Positions 18,457 to 32,567 of a stretch of DNA of 64,000 nucleotides are shown here, piece after piece. Numbering within the stretch: position 1 is the stretch's first letter; each line of letters begins with the position of its first letter. The position numbers and the translations under genes are program-made. The notes under the pieces were generated by a model. That model was not told where the DNA came from, did no database searches, and saw nothing but the letters and a program-made list of their open reading frames with translations. Source of the stretch: Streptacidiphilus pinicola (GTDB taxonomy: Bacteria > Actinomycetota > Actinomycetes > Streptomycetales > Streptomycetaceae); assembly GCF_003258295.1 (NCBI RefSeq), contig NZ_QKYN01000075.1, forward strand, positions 1-64,000, given 5' to 3'.

Positions 18457-18786
18457 ATGCGCTACCTGATGACGGCCCGCAACACCGAGACCACCCCCGC
18501 GCCGGACGAGAAGCTCTTCGTCGAGATGGCCGCGTTCGTCGAGGAGATGACCGCCGCCGGTGTCCTGCTGGCGACCGGCGGGCTCGCCCAGGAGGGCGTG
18601 CGGCTGGTCTCCCGGGGCGACGAGCTGACCGTGACCGACGGCCCGTTCGCGGAGACCAAGGAGGCGGTGGTCGGCTTCGCGCTGGTGGAGGTCGACTCCA
18701 AGGAGCAGGCGATCGAGCTGGCCCGGCGCTTCCGCCGGATCGTGGGCGACGGCGAGAGCCTCGTCCAGCAGATCTTCGGACCGTGA
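18457..18786 (+). CDS. YCII-related DGPF-domain protein
   Basis: A 109-residue protein with the YCII/DGPF fold: MRYLMTARN at the start, the diagnostic VTDGPFAETKEAVVGF at about residues 65-80, and a C-terminal helix. AAGGAG precedes the ATG. Its stop overlaps the GTG of the following sigma factor gene (GTGA). DGPF proteins and group ECF42 sigma factors are a known conserved pair in actinobacteria; the biochemical role of DGPF proteins is not settled. The 198-base upstream gap contains the inverted repeat GACAGG-N5-CCTGTC at 18368-18384. Confidence 0.9.
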   Translation: MRYLMTARNTETTPAPDEKLFVEMAAFVEEMTAAGVLLATGGLAQEGVRLVSRGDELTVTDGPFAETKEAVVGFALVEVDSKEQAIELARRFRRIVGDGESLVQQIFGP

Positions 18787-20885
18787 CCGGGCCGACGGGT
18801 GCGCGGGGCGGCGGCGACGCGGCCGCCCCGGCGCCGGACCGCAGCCCCCCGGCCCCCGGCCCGTCCGGCCGGGACACGCCCGACGTGCACGCGGTCGTGT
18901 CGGCCGTGTGGCGGCTGGAGTCGGCGCGGATCACCGCCGCGCTGGTGCGGATCGTGCGGGACGTGGGCGCGGCCGAGGAGCTGGCGCAGGACGCCCTGGT
19001 GGCCGCACTCGAGCAGTGGCCGGCCACCGGCGTCCCGGCCAACCCGGCCGCCTGGCTTACCACGATCGCCAAACGGCGCGCGGTGGACCGGATCCGCCGC
19101 GCCGAACGCGAGGAACGCAAACACGCGGAACTCGCCCGGGAGTTGGCTGAGCCCATGCATGCGGCCGCCGAGCCGGCCCCGGGCGACGACACCGACGAGT
19201 CGGCCGACGTGCTGCGCCTGCTGCTGCTCACCTGCCACCCGGCCCTGCCCACACAGGCGCGGATCGCGCTGACGCTGCGGCTGCTGGGCGGCCTCACGCC
19301 GGAGGAGATCGCGCGAGCGCTGCTGCTGGACACGACGACGGTCACCCGCCGGATCGCCGAGGGCAAGCGCGTCCTCGCGGACCAGCGCGTCGACTTCACC
19401 GGCAGACCCGCGCCCGAGGAACTGCGCGAACGGATCGGCGCCGCCCTCGAGGTGATCTACCTGGTCTTCAACGAGGGCTACGCGGCCACCTCCGGCGAGG
19501 ACCTGATCCGGCCCGACCTCTGCCTGACCGCGCTCCGGCTGGGCCGGCTGCTGGCCCGGCTCGCCCCGCTGGAGCCGGAGGCGCACGCGCTGGTCGCGCT
19601 GATGGAGTTGCAGGCCTCCCGGCAGGCCGCCCGGACCGGCCCCGACGGGGAGCCGGTCCCGCTGCACGAGCAGAACCGGGGTCGCTGGGATCCGCTGCTG
19701 ATCCGCCGCGGCTTCGAGGCGATGCTGCGCGCCCGTGACCTGCTCGCCGGCGCACGCCCCGGGCCGCCCGGCCCGTATCTGCTGCAGGCCGCGATCGCCG
19801 TCTGCCACGCCCAGGCGCGCACGGCCGAGGAGACCGACTGGGCGCAGATCGCCGCCCTCTACCAGGCGTTGGCCCATCTGCTGCCGACACCCGTGGTGCA
19901 GCTCAACCGGGCCGTGGCGGTGGGGCGGGCCGAGGGCCCGCAGGCCGGGCTGGACCTGGTCGACGCGCTGCATCCGGACCCCACGCTGCAGGACAGCCAT
20001 CTGCTGCCGAGCGTCCGCGCCGACCTGCTGCTGCGGCTGGGCCGCAGGGCCGAGGCGCAGGCGGAGTTCCGCCGCGCGGCCGGGCTGGCCCGCAACGAGG
20101 CCGAACGCGCCTTCCTGTTGCGCCGCGCCGCAGCACTCGGCATCGCGGTCACCGGACCGGATTTGGGCGCGGCGGCGGAGGCCTTCCTCGCCGAGGCCGC
20201 CCTGGACGCGTCCAGCCGCCGCTCCTACGCGCAGACGCTCCGCCGCCTGCGGGCCGGTCTCGGCGAGACCGCGCCGCTCGGCGCGGTGACGGCGGACCAG
20301 GTGGTGCGGGTGTTCGCCACGGCCTGGGGTGACGCGGCGGCCGCGACCTGGAACCGGCACCGCGCCGCGCTGCGCTCCTTCGCCGCCTGGGCCGGACACG
20401 AGGAGCTGGCCGCCGGTCTGCCGCGCCGCCCGGCCGCCTCACCCGCCGCCCGCCCGGCCCCGCCGCCCCGTCGTGACCTGCGCTCGCTGCTGCGCGATCC
20501 GGGCGTGCCGGCCCGTGACCGCGCGCTGTGGCGGGTGCTGCACGAGTCCGGCGCCACGGTCGCCGCGGTGCTGGCGCTGGGCGTCGAGGATCTGGACCTG
20601 GCGCACGACCGTGCGCGCAGCGGCGCGGTCTTCGTCTGCTGGCACCCCGAAACGACGCCCCTGGTCGCCGAGTTGGCCGCCGAGCGGGAGCGTGGCCCGC
20701 TCTTCCTCAGCGCCCGCCGCCCGGCGCCCGCCCGCACTCCGGCCGATGGCGCTGACCTGTGCCCGCGGACCGGCCGCCGCCGGCTCTCCTACGAGCGCGC
20801 GGAGTACCTGTTCAAGCACGCCACCCGCGAACTCGACCCCGCCGGTGCGGGGTTCACCCTGCGCACGCTGCGGGCCGGAATGTGA
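18783..20885 (+). CDS. ECF42-type sigma factor fused to a degenerate tyrosine recombinase
   Basis: 700 residues from GTG 18783, overlapping the DGPF gene by four bases. Residues 35-105 are sigma region 2 (LAQDALVAALEQWP), 140-200 region 4 (LTPEEIARALLLDTTTVTRR), and 210-450 the helical extension typical of ECF42 (YLVFNEGYAATSGEDLIRPD). Such proteins normally end near residue 450. Here the frame continues: 463-540 resembles the recombinase core-binding domain (SSRRSYAQTLRRLRAGLG) and 575-700 the catalytic fold (WRVLHESGATVAAVLALGVE; RRLSYERAEYLFKHATREL). The first catalytic Arg is Thr592, the HxxR box reads RTLR, and the protein stops there without the tyrosine. The recombinase part is inactive, if made; a DNA-binding role is a guess. 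Confidence 0.85.
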   Translation: MTGPTGARGGGDAAAPAPDRSPPAPGPSGRDTPDVHAVVSAVWRLESARITAALVRIVRDVGAAEELAQDALVAALEQWPATGVPANPAAWLTTIAKRRAVDRIRRAEREERKHAELARELAEPMHAAAEPAPGDDTDESADVLRLLLLTCHPALPTQARIALTLRLLGGLTPEEIARALLLDTTTVTRRIAEGKRVLADQRVDFTGRPAPEELRERIGAALEVIYLVFNEGYAATSGEDLIRPDLCLTALRLGRLLARLAPLEPEAHALVALMELQASRQAARTGPDGEPVPLHEQNRGRWDPLLIRRGFEAMLRARDLLAGARPGPPGPYLLQAAIAVCHAQARTAEETDWAQIAALYQALAHLLPTPVVQLNRAVAVGRAEGPQAGLDLVDALHPDPTLQDSHLLPSVRADLLLRLGRRAEAQAEFRRAAGLARNEAERAFLLRRAAALGIAVTGPDLGAAAEAFLAEAALDASSRRSYAQTLRRLRAGLGETAPLGAVTADQVVRVFATAWGDAAAATWNRHRAALRSFAAWAGHEELAAGLPRRPAASPAARPAPPPRRDLRSLLRDPGVPARDRALWRVLHESGATVAAVLALGVEDLDLAHDRARSGAVFVCWHPETTPLVAELAAERERGPLFLSARRPAPARTPADGADLCPRTGRRRLSYERAEYLFKHATRELDPAGAGFTLRTLRAGM

Positions 20886-26265: not shown

Positions 26266-26354
26266 CGCACGCGCGGACGGGTCGGCCACGACCCTGTCGG
26301 CGCCACGTGATAGGAACTCCCGCGACGGACGAGACCGAGGGGGGTCCACGCACG

Positions 26355-27338
26355 ATGGGGTTGTTCGGACGGCGGCGCAAGGGCGCCGCCGAGGGGGAAC
26401 GGAGCGCGGGCGGCGGCCTGGAGGCCACGCCCGTGCTGGATCCCGCGTTCGGGGATCCGCTGCTGCGCGGCGTGATCGCGCAGGCCGAGGCGCGCGACTG
26501 GCCGGCCCTGCGGGCGAGCCTGCTCGCCACCGCCGACCAGGCGGAGCAGACACAGCTGGTCGCGGTCGCGGCCGAGGTGGCCGGGGTCGAGGAGTGGGCG
26601 CCGCAGGCCGGCGACGACTCGTTGGCGCTGCTGCTCTCCGGCGCCCGGCAGATCAACTGGGCCTGGGAGGCGCGCACCGGCGCCCGCGCGCGGAACGTGA
26701 CGCAGGAGCAGTGGGACGTGTTCCTGCAGCGCCTGGGCGTCGCGGAGGAGCAGCTGCTGGAGGTGGCCGAGCGGGAGCCGACGTGGCTGGGCCCGTGGTA
26801 CTTCCTGCAGATGAGCGCGCGGGGGGCGTCGCTGGACCAGGACGTGGCGCGCTACCGCTTCGAGGCGGCGCTGCGGCGTTCCCCGGGGCATCCGGCCTCG
26901 CACCGGCAGCGGCTGCAGCAGGTCTGCGCCAAGTGGGGCGGCTCGCACGAGGAGATGCACGCGTTCGCGCGCGAGTCGATGCTGGCCGCGGCCCCGGGCA
27001 GTCCGCTGGGCGAGCTGGTGGCGCGGGCGCACCTGGAACGCTGGCTGGATCTGGGCGGCGGCGCGCAGGGGCGCGCCTACATGGGCGGGCCGAACGTCAT
27101 GGCCGAGCTGCAGGACGCCGCGCAGCGGTCCGTCTTCCACCCGGAGTACCGGCCCGAGCGCAGCTGGAAGGCGGTGCACAACACCTTCGCCATGGCCTTC
27201 TCGCTCTCCGGTCAGCGGCACCTCGCACGGCCGCTGTTCGAGGCGCTGAACGGCACGGTCACCGACACGCCCTGGGCGTTCCTCGGCGGCGACCCGGCGC
27301 TCTCCTTCCGCACCCACCGCGCCCGCTGCGCGGCCTGA
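26355..27338 (+). CDS. Helical-repeat protein, first gene of the HSP90/TPR set
   Basis: 327 residues; mostly alpha-helical with TPR-like spacing (EQLLEVAEREPTWLGPWYFL, YRFEAALRRSPGHPASHRQR). The N-terminus is short, basic and Gly-rich (MGLFGRRRKGAAEGERSAGG) without a signal peptide, so the protein is cytoplasmic. The ribosome site is GAGGGGGG before ATG 26355. I cannot assign a named family with certainty. It lies 35 bases upstream of an HSP90-family gene, which is followed by a large TPR gene in overlapping register, so the three are probably one operon and one functional unit. Confidence 0.75.
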   Translation: MGLFGRRRKGAAEGERSAGGGLEATPVLDPAFGDPLLRGVIAQAEARDWPALRASLLATADQAEQTQLVAVAAEVAGVEEWAPQAGDDSLALLLSGARQINWAWEARTGARARNVTQEQWDVFLQRLGVAEEQLLEVAEREPTWLGPWYFLQMSARGASLDQDVARYRFEAALRRSPGHPASHRQRLQQVCAKWGGSHEEMHAFARESMLAAAPGSPLGELVARAHLERWLDLGGGAQGRAYMGGPNVMAELQDAAQRSVFHPEYRPERSWKAVHNTFAMAFSLSGQRHLARPLFEALNGTVTDTPWAFLGGDPALSFRTHRARCAA

Positions 27339-27373
27339 ACCCTCGACCAAGCGACCACGAAAGACCCACCACG

Positions 27374-29266
27374 GTGCCTCTCTTCGAACGCTCCAGCAGC
27401 CCCACGGGCGACCAGGCCGACGCCGCCGCGCACACCTTCCAGGTCGACCTGCGCGGCCTGGTGGACCTGCTCTCCCACCACCTCTACTCGTCCCCCCGCG
27501 TCTACCTGCGCGAGCTGCTGCAGAACGCCGTCGACGCGATCTCCGCGCGGCGCCTGCTCGACGCGGACGCCCCGGCCGCCATCACCGTGCGCGCCGCCGA
27601 CACCCTCACGGTGACGGACACCGGCGTCGGCCTCACCGAGGAGGACGTGCACACCTTCCTCGCCACCATCGGCCGCAGCTCCAAGCGCGGCGCGGACGGC
27701 GGCATCGACGGCGCCGGCCTGGCGTCCGCGCGCGGCGACTTCATCGGGCAGTTCGGCATCGGACTGCTCGCCTGCTTCGTGGTCGCCGACGAGATCACCG
27801 TCGTAACCCGCTCCGCGAAGAGCAAGGACGCGCCGGTCATCGAGTGGCGCGGCCACTCCGACGGCCGCTACACGATCCGCACGCTGCCCTCCGCCGTCCG
27901 GCCGGAGCCCGGCACGACCGTCACGCTGGCCCCGCGCGCCGACGCGCGCGAGTGGACCGAACACGGCCAGGTGGTCTCCCTCGCCCGGGACTTCGGCAGC
28001 CTGCTGCGCTTCGACGTCACCGTGCAGGACGCGCACGGCGGCACGGTGCGGATCAACCGGACGCCGCCGTGGGCGGCGCAGCACGCCTCGCCGCTCGCGC
28101 GCCGCGACGCGTACACGGAGTTCTGCCGCGACACCTTCGACTTCGTCCCGCTCGACACGATCGAGCTGGAGCTGCCCGTGGTCGGGCTGCGCGGCGTCGC
28201 CTACGTGCTGCCGGACGCCGCGCCGCCCTCGCGCCGGGCCGGGCACCGGGTGCACCTCAAGGGCATGCTGCTCTCCGACCAGGCGGACGAACTCCTGCCG
28301 GAGTGGGCCTTCTTCGTCCGCTGCGTCGTCGACACCGACGCGCTGCGCCCGACCGCGTCGCGCGAGGGCCTGTACGCGGACGAGACGCTGGCCGCGGTCC
28401 GCGACGCGCTCGGCGCGCGGATCCGCGAGTGGCTGACGGGGCTCTCCGCCACCGACCCGGCGCTGCTGCACCGGTTCATCGGCGTGCACCACCTGGCCGT
28501 CAAGTCGCTGGCCCGGTACGACGACGAGCTGCTGAAGATGCTGCTCCCGTGGCTGCCGTTCGAGACGACGGACGGCAACGTGACCCTGGACGAGTTCGCG
28601 CGCACCCACCCCGTCATCCTGGTCACCCGCACCGTCGAGGAGTTCCGCCAGGTCGCACCGGTCGCCGGCGCCGCCGGGCTGGGCGTGATCAACGGCGGCT
28701 ACACCTACGACCGCGACCTGGTGCACCGGCTGCCGGAGATCCGTCCGGGCTCCTCGGTGGCGGACCTCGACCCGGGCACCGTCACCGCGCACCTCGACTC
28801 CGTCGACCCGGCCGCCGAGCTGGCCGCGTCCGCGTTCCTCGCGATCGCGCGCGAGGTCGTCGGGCGCTTCGACTGCGACGTGGCGCTGCGCAGCTTCCAC
28901 CCGACCAACGCGCCCGCGCTGCTGCTGGACAACCGCGAGGCACGGCACGAGCGCTCCCGCGCGCAGCTGGCCCAGGAGACGGACGGCCTGTGGGCGGACA
29001 TCCTCGGCTCGCTGCGTGCCGAGGTGCCGCGCGCGCAGCTGGTGCTCAACCACCTGAACCCGCTGGTGCGCCGGGCCGCCACGATCACCCATCGGGAGCT
29101 GGCGGTTACGGCCGTCGAGGCGCTGTACGGGCAGGCGGTGCTGCTGACCCGCCGTCCGCTGCGGGCCAGCGAGAGCGCGCTGCTCAACCGGTCCTTCATC
29201 AGCCTGCTCGACCACGCCATGCTCGGTCACGAGGCCCAGGGCCCCGGGACGGAGGACGCGTCGTGA
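27374..29266 (+). CDS. HSP90-family (HtpG-like) ATPase
   Basis: 630 residues, close to E. coli HtpG. The GHKL ATPase motifs are intact: YLRELLQNAVDAIS with the catalytic Glu, TDTGVGL with the ATP-binding Asp, and FIGQFGIGLLACF. The middle-domain Arg that contacts ATP is kept in TASREGLYADE. The C-terminal dimerisation domain is recognisable by LNHLNPLVRR and GQAVLLTRRPLRASESALLN. No MEEVD-type tail exists (it ends GTEDAS). The start is GTG 27374. The stop overlaps the TPR gene GTG by four bases (GTGA). It is divergent in sequence from standard HtpG, so a specialised chaperone is likely. Confidence 0.92.
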   Translation: MPLFERSSSPTGDQADAAAHTFQVDLRGLVDLLSHHLYSSPRVYLRELLQNAVDAISARRLLDADAPAAITVRAADTLTVTDTGVGLTEEDVHTFLATIGRSSKRGADGGIDGAGLASARGDFIGQFGIGLLACFVVADEITVVTRSAKSKDAPVIEWRGHSDGRYTIRTLPSAVRPEPGTTVTLAPRADAREWTEHGQVVSLARDFGSLLRFDVTVQDAHGGTVRINRTPPWAAQHASPLARRDAYTEFCRDTFDFVPLDTIELELPVVGLRGVAYVLPDAAPPSRRAGHRVHLKGMLLSDQADELLPEWAFFVRCVVDTDALRPTASREGLYADETLAAVRDALGARIREWLTGLSATDPALLHRFIGVHHLAVKSLARYDDELLKMLLPWLPFETTDGNVTLDEFARTHPVILVTRTVEEFRQVAPVAGAAGLGVINGGYTYDRDLVHRLPEIRPGSSVADLDPGTVTAHLDSVDPAAELAASAFLAIAREVVGRFDCDVALRSFHPTNAPALLLDNREARHERSRAQLAQETDGLWADILGSLRAEVPRAQLVLNHLNPLVRRAATITHRELAVTAVEALYGQAVLLTRRPLRASESALLNRSFISLLDHAMLGHEAQGPGTEDAS

Positions 29267-32200
29267 GCGTGGACACCGCCGAGGAGCTGGTCCAGGCGCT
29301 GCGCGCCAACGACGAGCGCCCCTACGGCAAGCAGCGCACCGTCACCGCCGAGGAGCTGGCGGAGGCGGCCGAGCAGCTCTCCGAGGCCGGTCGGCTGGAC
29401 GATCCGCAGCTGCTGGTCGTCGCCCTGTTCGACCTGCAGGAGGCGTACACCTACGACGCCGAACAGCGGAAGTCGCCGGTGGTCTTCGCCAAGGTGCTGA
29501 AGCTGTGGGACACCAAGCCCGAGGCGTTCAACGAGTGGGCCCGCACGCAGCTGTTCTGGCGCTTCAAGTGGGTCGCCTCGGCGCTGCGCGGGCTGCCCGA
29601 GGTGCCGCTCGCGGCGGTGCGCCGCTGGGACGAGGAGATGAGGTCCCGCTACACCAAGGCGGAGCTCGGCCTGCAGCCGTACTACGCGCAACGCTTCTAC
29701 CTGGCCTGGCATCTGGACGGTCCCGGCGGCGACGCCGTGGCGGACGCGTTCGAGCTGTGGGCGGGCCGGCCGCGCACCCGCTACAGCGACTGCGTCGCCT
29801 GCGAGCTGCGCAGCCGCGCCGACTTCCACGCCCACCGGGGCGACGACGCGCGGGCGCTGGAGATCTGGAAGCCGGTGCTGGACGGCGAGAGCACCTGCAG
29901 TGAGGAGCCGTGGTCCAGCCACGCCCATGCGCTGCTGCCGTTCGTCCGCGCGGGCCGCCTCGACGAGGCGCGCTCCAGCCACCTGGTCGGCTACCGCTTC
30001 TCCCGTGGCAAGTCCGCCCAGACCACCGAGGTCGGTCTGCACCTGGAGTTCTGCACGCTGACCCGCAACGAGGCGCGCGGCCTGGAGATCCTGGCCGAGA
30101 ACCGCGACCTGTGGGCCACCGAGGGCAACCCGCTCGGACTGCTCAACTTCCGTGGCGGCGTGGAGCTGCTGCTCACCCGTCTGGACGCCGACGGCCACGG
30201 CGCGCTGCCCGTCAGCGGCCCGCCCGGCGAGAACTGGACGGTGGCGTCGCTGCTGGCCCATGTCCATGCGCAGAACGCGGAGCTGGCGGCACGGTTCGAC
30301 GCCCGTAACGGCACCGACGGCGTCGGCGCCAGGCTGCGCGCCCGGCTGGCCCAGCAGCCGCTGCTGGCCGAGCCGTTGGCGCTGGGAGTGCGGGTTCCCG
30401 GCCTGCCGGAGCAGTCCGGCGCGCGCACCCCGGCCCCCGCCCCGGTCCGCCCGGCCGCCGCCGAGGCCCCGCAGAACCTGGTCGAACTGGTTTGCAGGGC
30501 ACGGGAGTTGTACCGGGCCGGCCATCCGGACGCGGACGCGCTGTGGCTGCGCGTCGCGGAGCGGATCGAGGCCGAGGGCTTCGTCCTCCCCGACGACGCC
30601 GAGCTGGGCCCGCTGGCGCTGCTGCGGGCGGAGGTCGCGCAGCAGCGCGCCTCCGACGCCATGGAGAACCGCGACCGGGCCACCGCCCGCGCCGAGATGG
30701 AGCGCGCCGTCGCCCACTTCGCCGAGGCGGGCCGCGAGGACCGCCGCATCGCGGCGCAGGCCCGGCTGGCCGTCGTGGACGCCGAGCCCGAGGACGGCGC
30801 CACGGACTGGGCGGCCCTGGACCGGCTGCGCGACGCAGCCGTCTCGCTGCGGGCGACGGACCCCGAGGCCGACTCGGACAGCCTGCTGACTGTCCTGCAG
30901 AGCCGTACCTACGCGGCCCACCACGCCCTCTACCGCGCCACGCAGGGCGCGGAGGCAGCCGAAGAGGCGCCCGGCCCGCGGACGGCAGCAGCCGCGGCCG
31001 CGCAGCCGTCGGCCGCGAGCAATGCGAGCAATCCAGGCGAGGCAGACGTGCCTGCCCCGCCCAGCCCGGCCCTGCCGGTTTCGCCCATGGAGCAAGCTGC
31101 GGCACGCTTCGAGGCCGAGAACACCGCCTTCCTGCAGGCGGCAGCCGAGTTCGGGCTGCGGCACCGGGTCTCGCTCGCCCTGCAGTACCGCGCCGACGTG
31201 GCGGCCCGCCAGGGACGCCTCGACGAGGCGGACGCGGCACTGCAGGAGGCACTGCGCCTGCTGGAGGAGGTGCAGCAGCCGTGGCGGGCGCCGCGGGCCC
31301 TGGTGCTGCTGGGCCAGATCCGGGTGCAGCAGCAGCGGCCGCAGCAGGCCGTGGAGGCGTTCCACCGTGCCCTCGGCGAGGCGGCCCGCTGGCCGGACCC
31401 GTCGTTCCCCTACGGCCCGGCCCACTCGATGCTGGGCCAGGCCTGCGCGATGTCCGGCGACCAGCACGGAGCCATCCGGGCCCTGACCGAGGCCGCGTCC
31501 CGCTTCGACCGCGGCGGCGACCCCGAGCAGGCGACCACCGTCCGGCTCAACCTGGCCAACCTGCTCCGCCGTTCGGGCCGCACCGCGGACGCGGTGGCGG
31601 TGCTGGAGTCGGCCGTGGCCGACGCCGACGCGACCGGGCTGGACACGACCACGTCCCCGTCGGGCGGTTGGGGACGGCTGCGGGCCCAGTTGCAGCTGGA
31701 CCTCGCCCGCGGCCTGGAAGCGCTGGACGAACACCGCGACGCCGCCGAGGAGTTCCTCCGGCTCGCGGACGCCGTCGCCGACTGGGAGGACCAGGACGTC
31801 CACACGATGGCCGCCTGCGAGGCCACCGTCGCCCTGGGCGAGGCCGGCCTGCCGGACGCCGCCCGCGCCGCGTTGGAGCGGGCACTGGCCTCCCACGCGG
31901 TCGCGCCGCGCCCCGACCAGATGGCGGCGACGCTGCGCGAGTTCGCCCGCCAACGGATGGAGGCGGACGGCGCGGACGCCCTGGAGGAGGCGCTCGCCCG
32001 GATCGCCGAGTCCGAACGCGTGGGGGCGGACGCGGTGGCCGCGGGCCACGACGTGAACCCGTGGTTCGTCACCGGCTCGGCCCACTACGAGCGCGGCCGC
32101 GCCTACGCCGAGGCGCAACGGCCGGAGGAGGCGCTGGCCGCGTTCGAGGAGTCGATCGCCCTCTACGCGGCGGTGGGCCGCGAGGCGGAGGAGCCGCGCG

Positions 32201-32370
32201 CCGAGTCACTACGCCTGGCCGCGATCGTCGAGGCCGGCCCCCTCGGCCGCCGCGACGCCGCGCTCCAGCGCCTCACCGCCGGCATCACCCGCTGCGAACA
32301 GGCGGGCCTGCCCCAGGCCGCGAAGATCCTCACCGGCCTCCGCGACCGCGTGGCCGCCCAGCGGAACTGA
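29263..32370 (+). CDS. Large TPR protein partnered with the HSP90-family ATPase
   Basis: 1035 residues. The N-terminal half (1-400) is helical with many Trp/Arg residues (ARTQLFWRFKWVASALRGLP) and contains TPR-like turns such as DDARALEIWKPVLDGES. A Pro/Ala linker at about 560-610 leads to a C-terminal array of TPR units (QGRLDEADAALQEALRLLEE, PQQAVEAFHRALGEAARW, and GRTADAVAVLESAVADAD). There is no signal peptide or membrane segment. GTG 29263 overlaps the HSP90 gene stop, so translation is coupled. A perfect 15-bp hairpin terminator ends the set. Eukaryotic HSP90 recruits TPR co-chaperones; an analogous partnership here is an inference from gene order. Confidence 0.85.
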   Translation: MSVDTAEELVQALRANDERPYGKQRTVTAEELAEAAEQLSEAGRLDDPQLLVVALFDLQEAYTYDAEQRKSPVVFAKVLKLWDTKPEAFNEWARTQLFWRFKWVASALRGLPEVPLAAVRRWDEEMRSRYTKAELGLQPYYAQRFYLAWHLDGPGGDAVADAFELWAGRPRTRYSDCVACELRSRADFHAHRGDDARALEIWKPVLDGESTCSEEPWSSHAHALLPFVRAGRLDEARSSHLVGYRFSRGKSAQTTEVGLHLEFCTLTRNEARGLEILAENRDLWATEGNPLGLLNFRGGVELLLTRLDADGHGALPVSGPPGENWTVASLLAHVHAQNAELAARFDARNGTDGVGARLRARLAQQPLLAEPLALGVRVPGLPEQSGARTPAPAPVRPAAAEAPQNLVELVCRARELYRAGHPDADALWLRVAERIEAEGFVLPDDAELGPLALLRAEVAQQRASDAMENRDRATARAEMERAVAHFAEAGREDRRIAAQARLAVVDAEPEDGATDWAALDRLRDAAVSLRATDPEADSDSLLTVLQSRTYAAHHALYRATQGAEAAEEAPGPRTAAAAAAQPSAASNASNPGEADVPAPPSPALPVSPMEQAAARFEAENTAFLQAAAEFGLRHRVSLALQYRADVAARQGRLDEADAALQEALRLLEEVQQPWRAPRALVLLGQIRVQQQRPQQAVEAFHRALGEAARWPDPSFPYGPAHSMLGQACAMSGDQHGAIRALTEAASRFDRGGDPEQATTVRLNLANLLRRSGRTADAVAVLESAVADADATGLDTTTSPSGGWGRLRAQLQLDLARGLEALDEHRDAAEEFLRLADAVADWEDQDVHTMAACEATVALGEAGLPDAARAALERALASHAVAPRPDQMAATLREFARQRMEADGADALEEALARIAESERVGADAVAAGHDVNPWFVTGSAHYERGRAYAEAQRPEEALAAFEESIALYAAVGREAEEPRAESLRLAAIVEAGPLGRRDAALQRLTAGITRCEQAGLPQAAKILTGLRDRVAAQRN

Positions 32371-32397
32371 CCCCACTTCGCACCCCACGCCCGCCCC

Positions 32398-32433
32398 GAC
32401 GGCGCGCAGGACTCCCCCGTCCTGCGCGCCGTC
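32398..32433 (+). terminator. Terminator of the HSP90/TPR gene set
   Basis: GACGGCGCGCAGGAC and GTCCTGCGCGCCGTC pair perfectly over 15 bp around a six-base loop, 27 bases after the TPR gene stop. Confidence 0.8.
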
Positions 32434-32567
32434 GCGCGTTCCGGCGCGGCGGCCGCCGGTAGGGCGCCCGGTCACTCGCCCCGCCCCGGGCCGTCGTCGC
32501 CCGCGGCGGGCCCCGGCCCCACCCGCGCCGTCGTCGCCCGGTCTCCGCGCGCCGCCCCTGGCACATC

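Follow-up and report, generated by a model that had tools for sequence, protein, structure and literature searches.

Organization of the locus

The window analysed here is a stretch of 64,000 nucleotides from Streptacidiphilus pinicola (assembly GCF_003258295.1, contig NZ_QKYN01000075.1, positions 1-64,000 of the forward strand). It contains a run of three genes on the + strand, in which an HSP90-family ATPase is encoded together with proteins of the tetratricopeptide repeat (TPR) type. The first gene (26355-27338) encodes P0001, a predicted TPR-like helical-repeat protein of 327 amino acids (aa). The second (27374-29266) encodes P0002, the HSP90-family ATPase of 630 aa, and the third (29263-32370) encodes P0003, a TPR superhelix protein of 1035 aa, hereafter termed the partner. 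The P0001 and P0002 genes are separated by 35 bp, and the P0002 and P0003 genes share a 4-bp start/stop overlap, GTGA (29263-29266, + strand), consistent with translational coupling. These open reading frames (ORFs), their spacing and their overlap were described in an original prediction made from the sequence alone, and they are real. The prediction treated the three genes as one system. This holds for the HSP90 and TPR genes, which form a conserved and coupled pair, but not for the 327-aa gene, which is confined to one Streptomycetaceae clade.

P0002 belongs to a named HSP90 family distinct from HtpG

P0002 matches the NCBIfam model NF010683/PRK14083 with 826.9 bits (cut-off 455) over model positions 4-597 of 604, whereas its score against the canonical HtpG model NF003555 is 186.6 bits, under the cut-off of 371. 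When 55 paired HSP90s were placed in one tree with 17 HtpGs, the two groups were split with 100/100 support; the tree has some long branches and an arbitrary root, and its deep order is not readable. Judged by these scores and the tree, P0002 is not an ordinary HtpG and belongs to a separate, already-named HSP90 family. The protein is thus full-length HSP90, as originally predicted, but of family NF010683. The same genome carries a canonical htpG on contig C174, where the next gene is not the partner.

The ATPase site of P0002 is intact. Residues E47, N51 and D54, the motifs D82xG84xG86 and G125xF127G128xG130, and the middle-domain R330 are invariant in an alignment of P0002 with its relatives from Listeria, Paenibacillus, Pseudomonas, Xanthomonas, Salmonella and Pseudanabaena and with the genome's own HtpG. 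P0002 therefore carries the complete GHKL ATPase motifs and the middle-domain Arg that characterize NF010683 members, in agreement with the prediction. The same is true of its C-terminus, which ends in GPGTEDAS and has no MEEVD docking motif.

The HSP90-TPR pair is conserved in actinomycetes

The TPR homologue is the next gene downstream of HSP90 in all 92 similarity-selected loci, of which 80 come from named genomes picked by HSP90 similarity alone, 11 from whole genomes and 1 from an annotated plasmid. The junction between the two genes is mostly -4 or -1 bases, and -4, -1 and 0 predominate in the family. In the 59 loci of clade B, the pair lies alone, with recG on one side and a FakA/DAK2 gene on the other; the flanking genes are on the opposite strand.

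The pairing was also surveyed from the partner side, by a search with its N-terminal module in 396 actinobacterial genomes and in 395 genomes drawn across the class. The module was found in 14 of the 396 genomes. A family HSP90 above the cut-off is present in 12, and 11 of these also have the module. Eleven genomes thus hold both genes, 1 only the HSP90, 3 only the partner and 381 neither (Fisher p = 5e-18, without phylogenetic correction). Copy numbers agree as well, two genomes (G023 and G161) each having two HSP90s and two partners. The class-wide draw yielded the module in 49 of 395 genomes. Both surveys together supplied stretches with 56 partner genes, 50 of which lie directly 3' of a same-strand family HSP90 gene. 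A profile of the partner module gave no hit in 20 canonical htpG loci, and it hit 11 of 12 family-HSP90 loci with flanks of comparable length; at the twelfth (G325), a divergent HSP90 adjoins a different TPR gene. Moreover, the pairwise distances of HSP90s and partners correlate with r = 0.935 over 50 pairs, to which common host descent contributes.

The adjacency is therefore not limited to this strain, and given its conservation the HSP90-TPR arrangement is not due to chance. The conserved unit consists of two genes, HSP90 and the TPR partner.

Structure of the TPR partner

P0003 was originally described as a TPR protein, which is borne out by Pfam TPR matches above the cut-off. Its AlphaFold model is a confidently predicted all-TPR superhelix (mean predicted local distance difference test score, pLDDT, 91.5). 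Searched by sequence against solved structures, P0003 gave no match at E <= 0.01. Residues 1-370 (29263-30372, + strand) form a conserved N-terminal module, common to the partners from Listeria and Paenibacillus, and the remainder of the protein is more variable.

The module contains two motifs. The first, C177xxC180...C212 (29791-29898, + strand), is invariant in a 24-row alignment, and its three cysteines are kept in 54, 54 and 51 of 55 partners. The second, FDARNG (residues 345-350; 30295-30312, + strand), is located at the end of the module; its F345-D346-x-R348-N349 is nearly as constant as the Cys triad, except in gammaproteobacteria, whose partners have no counterpart. The gammaproteobacterial partners are also without the third Cys, and an orphan partner from Priestia is without the CxxC. 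In the predicted model, C177 and C180 stand at the beginning of a helix, and C212 falls in the loop that precedes a later one. Because of these positions, the three cysteines could form one shared metal or disulphide site.

Pairs outside Actinomycetota

The cases from other phyla were drawn from collections of plasmid, phage and E. coli sequences and show occurrence, not frequency across phyla. In Listeria, the HSP90 gene is followed by two homologous partners of ~320 aa (E about 1e-15 to 1e-17 against P0003). The gene lmo0941, which adjoins the Listeria HSP90 gene lmo0942, has been listed as of unknown function (PMC6901971). In Paenibacillus, HSP90 is followed by one partner homologous to the module.

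Pseudomonas aeruginosa, Xanthomonas and Salmonella carry a sister HSP90, which scores 277-293 bits to NF010683 and does not reach its cut-off. The next gene encodes a repeat protein of 764-774 aa that bears CxxC. The Xanthomonas repeat protein has TPR matches in the Pfam scan, and those of P. aeruginosa and Salmonella are its homologues. An hhalign comparison of the gammaproteobacterial partner with the actinobacterial module gave a probability of 51% and E = 1.6e-4, with the alignment starting at the CxxC; their homology is only suggestive. The Salmonella-like pair is present in 245 of 5426 complete E. coli genomes, and in the two inspected it occupies a fixed site next to fdhD. In one of them, strain SCU-115 (L211:11838-14145), the HSP90 gene is intact, but the annotation of the partner gives a frameshift and an internal stop. 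This suggests that decay has set in recently in some E. coli.

In Pseudanabaena, a TPR gene is located two genes 3' of an HSP90-like gene. On the plasmid concerned (L050:5297-10879), the HSP90-like protein is extended at its C-terminus by a region that weakly matches the CAP12/Pycsar TIR domain. The next gene is homologous to this extension, and the TPR gene and a divergent ThsB TIR gene are found alongside.

The 327-aa protein is an accessory of one clade

P0001 has no Pfam match, and its relatives have only weak matches to DUF4034 and TPR_14. Assignment to DUF4034 was rejected, as the gathering score was not reached; 1 of 23 homologues matched at E = 0.01, and P0001 itself did not. The helical-repeat nature originally claimed for P0001 is nevertheless consistent with its predicted model, a TPR-like helical repeat (pLDDT 84). 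In a fold search, many TPR proteins were retrieved at similar Z, none of them outstanding.

The 327-aa gene is present in 28 of the 92 HSP90-TPR loci (clade A), in varying surroundings. In the tree, the HSP90s with this gene upstream form one clade, indicating one gain. It was rejected as a general third component, since the genes preceding the pair in other genera bear no relation to it (kptA-, mshC- and mdh-like by reading of their sequences). On this distribution, the 327-aa gene is a late addition within one Streptomycetaceae clade and not part of the core unit.

Flanking elements and neighbouring genes

Upstream of 93 loci, no HspR HAIR, HrcA CIRCE or ClgR site was found, and SigR-like matches occur in only 4; heat-shock control was rejected on these grounds. 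Many clade A loci have an element TGTC(A/G)G...CGTGATA ~50-140 bases 5' of the called start, which corresponds to no known heat-shock site. In the window it reads TGTCGG...CGTGATA (26295-26312, + strand), and it is kept in part of clade A. Downstream of the operon, a 15-bp terminator had been proposed. A hairpin of 16 pairs (z = -5.8) is present at 32397-32434 (+ strand) and may act as a terminator, but it has no T-run and for this reason was not called in the terminator scan.

In four loci of one actinomycete family (L193, L195, L197 and L198), the pair follows a gene that resembles the mycothiol-synthesis gene mshC, as identified by eye. These four neighbourhoods are syntenic relatives and represent one event. 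Elsewhere in the window, a 700-aa ORF (18783-20885) is an odd fusion of an extracytoplasmic function (ECF)-type sigma factor with DUF6596 and, joined to it, a C-terminal region resembling phage-integrase SAM-like domains and tyrosine recombinases.

A proposed HSP90-TPR machine

From the protein families, gene order, overlap, conservation, co-inheritance and predicted fold, we infer that the pair encodes a dedicated HSP90-TPR machine, separate from canonical HtpG, a reading that we hold to be somewhat favoured by the evidence. HSP90 and its partner would be made together through translational coupling and act as one machine apart from HtpG. HSP90 would contribute the ATP-driven clamp, and the TPR protein client binding or regulation. 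The N-terminal module of the partner would dock on the HSP90 dimer through a contact independent of MEEVD, and its C-terminal TPR superhelix would hold client proteins, which the ATP cycle of HSP90 would remodel or release. The CxxC...C motif may serve as a metal site or thiol switch tuning the machine, and the 327-aa TPR-like protein would be an accessory gained in one Streptomycetaceae clade. The original prediction regarded the TPR protein as a co-chaperone or client adaptor. It may be a co-chaperone, an adaptor or a private client of HSP90. A bolder version, in which a bacterial HSP90 lineage of ancient origin would be an obligate machine of two components, the second being its own TPR partner with a thiol/metal switch, is possible but rather doubtful. 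If true, the bacterial HSP90-TPR partnership would predate the eukaryotic co-chaperones or have arisen in parallel without MEEVD docking.

Several points weigh against a dedicated machine. A shared pathway can be enough to keep a long operon conserved, even where the products form no complex. In addition, partner genes occur without HSP90. Six of the 56 have no adjacent HSP90: three stand alone, two follow a YbjN gene and one follows a MerR-like gene. At least one genome (G171) has an orphan partner and no family HSP90. Because of these orphans, the partner may be the private client of HSP90 or have a function of its own. Among them, the partner at L177 lies at the recG-fakA site minus HSP90, in a genome that keeps a second complete pair, and L145 and L203 also hold orphan partner genes. 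At L145 (6802-11441), a transposase-like gene is found directly upstream of the orphan, at the position expected for HSP90. The partner overlaps the preceding YbjN gene by 4 bases at L146 (8532-10609) and L208 (5501-7551), and Actinomyces oris (L212:3259-7976) has two YbjN-like genes 5' of it, one annotated as YbjN and the second recognized by reading of its sequence. The MerR-like regulator gene 5' of the partner at L207 was recognized in the same way.

HSP90 is thus almost never found without a TPR partner, whereas the partner can occur without HSP90. This asymmetry speaks for the view that the work is done by the TPR protein, with HSP90 as its private folding or activation chaperone, a client being encoded beside its chaperone. 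Partners persist without HSP90 (L177, L145, L203) or with YbjN (L146, L208 and A. oris), a family HSP90 without the module was, by contrast, seen once, beside another TPR gene, and the C-terminal half of the partner varies faster, as expected of a target-binding part. However, orphans keep the module without an adjacent HSP90, including the Cys motif at L145 and in the YbjN-linked ones; some may use canonical HtpG or be decaying, and a -4 overlap suits the partners of a complex equally well. The exceptions fit a dedicated chaperone-partner unit and also a private client; the latter is the main rival explanation, which overall we consider unlikely.

Two further explanations start from other properties of the proteins. 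In a stress- or redox-regulatory module, HSP90 would reset a CxxC...C TPR protein that responds to thiol or metal state. This reading would fit a Cys triad retained across phyla in 51-54 of 55 partners, and the mshC-like gene adjoining four loci. It appears improbable, since those neighbourhoods count as one event, the upstream regions show no enrichment of SigR, HspR or HrcA sites, and both the gammaproteobacterial partners and the Priestia orphan lack part of the motif. Still less probable is a phage-defence or other conflict system in which a GHKL ATPase would work with a TPR sensor. In its favour, defence systems often contain GHKL and TPR domains, the Pseudanabaena protein has a weak TIR extension and a divergent ThsB TIR neighbour, and one Streptomycetaceae clade occurs at many sites and on plasmids. 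PADLOC, however, gives only weak N-terminal GHKL matches to the HSP90s and none to the TPR proteins. Among 85 neighbours of clade A pairs it finds no recurrent defence family, each match occurring in one member, and defence was rejected as a candidate on this basis. Elsewhere the pair has fixed housekeeping sites, between recG and fakA in Streptomyces, at fdhD in Salmonella and E. coli, and next to fri in Listeria. A scan of viral contigs was empty, and most of the relatives found among phage records are on contigs that are either short and unannotated or bacterial.

Comparison with known systems

Bacterial HSP90 is commonly regarded as working independently of TPR co-chaperones. The pair described here is found in several phyla, and its carriers include P. 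aeruginosa, Listeria and a small share of E. coli. As a machine it would provide a simple two-protein system, in which one could ask how TPR proteins steer HSP90 and whether the partnership predates eukaryotes. The large class of genes named 'HSP90 family protein' or 'ATP-binding protein' beside a 'hypothetical protein' likewise suggests itself for study as pairs.

The HSP90 family itself is already named, and its TPR pairing is the apparently new part. P0002 exceeds the cut-off of the NCBIfam equivalog NF010683/PRK14083, 'HSP90 family protein', over almost its full length, as does the Listeria protein with 799 bits, whereas the gammaproteobacterial and cyanobacterial relatives score under it. 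The family record is silent on any TPR partner, and no description of the pairing was found in the searchable (open-licence) literature. A separate basal HtpG lineage, HTPG 'Group C', was reported by Chen et al. in 2006 from Actinobacteria, Firmicutes, gammaproteobacteria and Bacteroidetes, and Streptomyces coelicolor was listed with two HTPG genes (PMC1525184). Its taxonomic range agrees with that of the NF010683 lineage, and by taxonomy and divergence the NF010683-type HSP90s are probably Group C. The text of that paper never mentions TPR proteins. With canonical HtpG of the E. coli type, P0002 shares the N-M-C architecture, the ATPase residues and the middle-domain Arg, and it differs in the model score, in the tree split and in having a partner module that is absent from the htpG loci. 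Another close system is that of Listeria lmo0942, whose HSP90 is homologous (35%), whose partner module is homologous (E about 1e-15) and whose gene order is the same. The Listeria partner corresponds to the N-terminal module alone, in duplicate.

The eukaryotic HSP90-TPR systems (Hop, PP5, FKBP51, UNC45 and SGT1) offer an analogy, in which an HSP90 ATPase is likewise combined with a TPR-superhelix protein, and P0003 has the TPR superhelix characteristic of such systems. According to one paper, bacteria are without a Hop orthologue (PMC7688965). The bacterial pair differs from the eukaryotic systems in that P0002 is without a MEEVD tail, and in that P0003 is a very long TPR superhelix with the CxxC...C and FDxRNG motifs.

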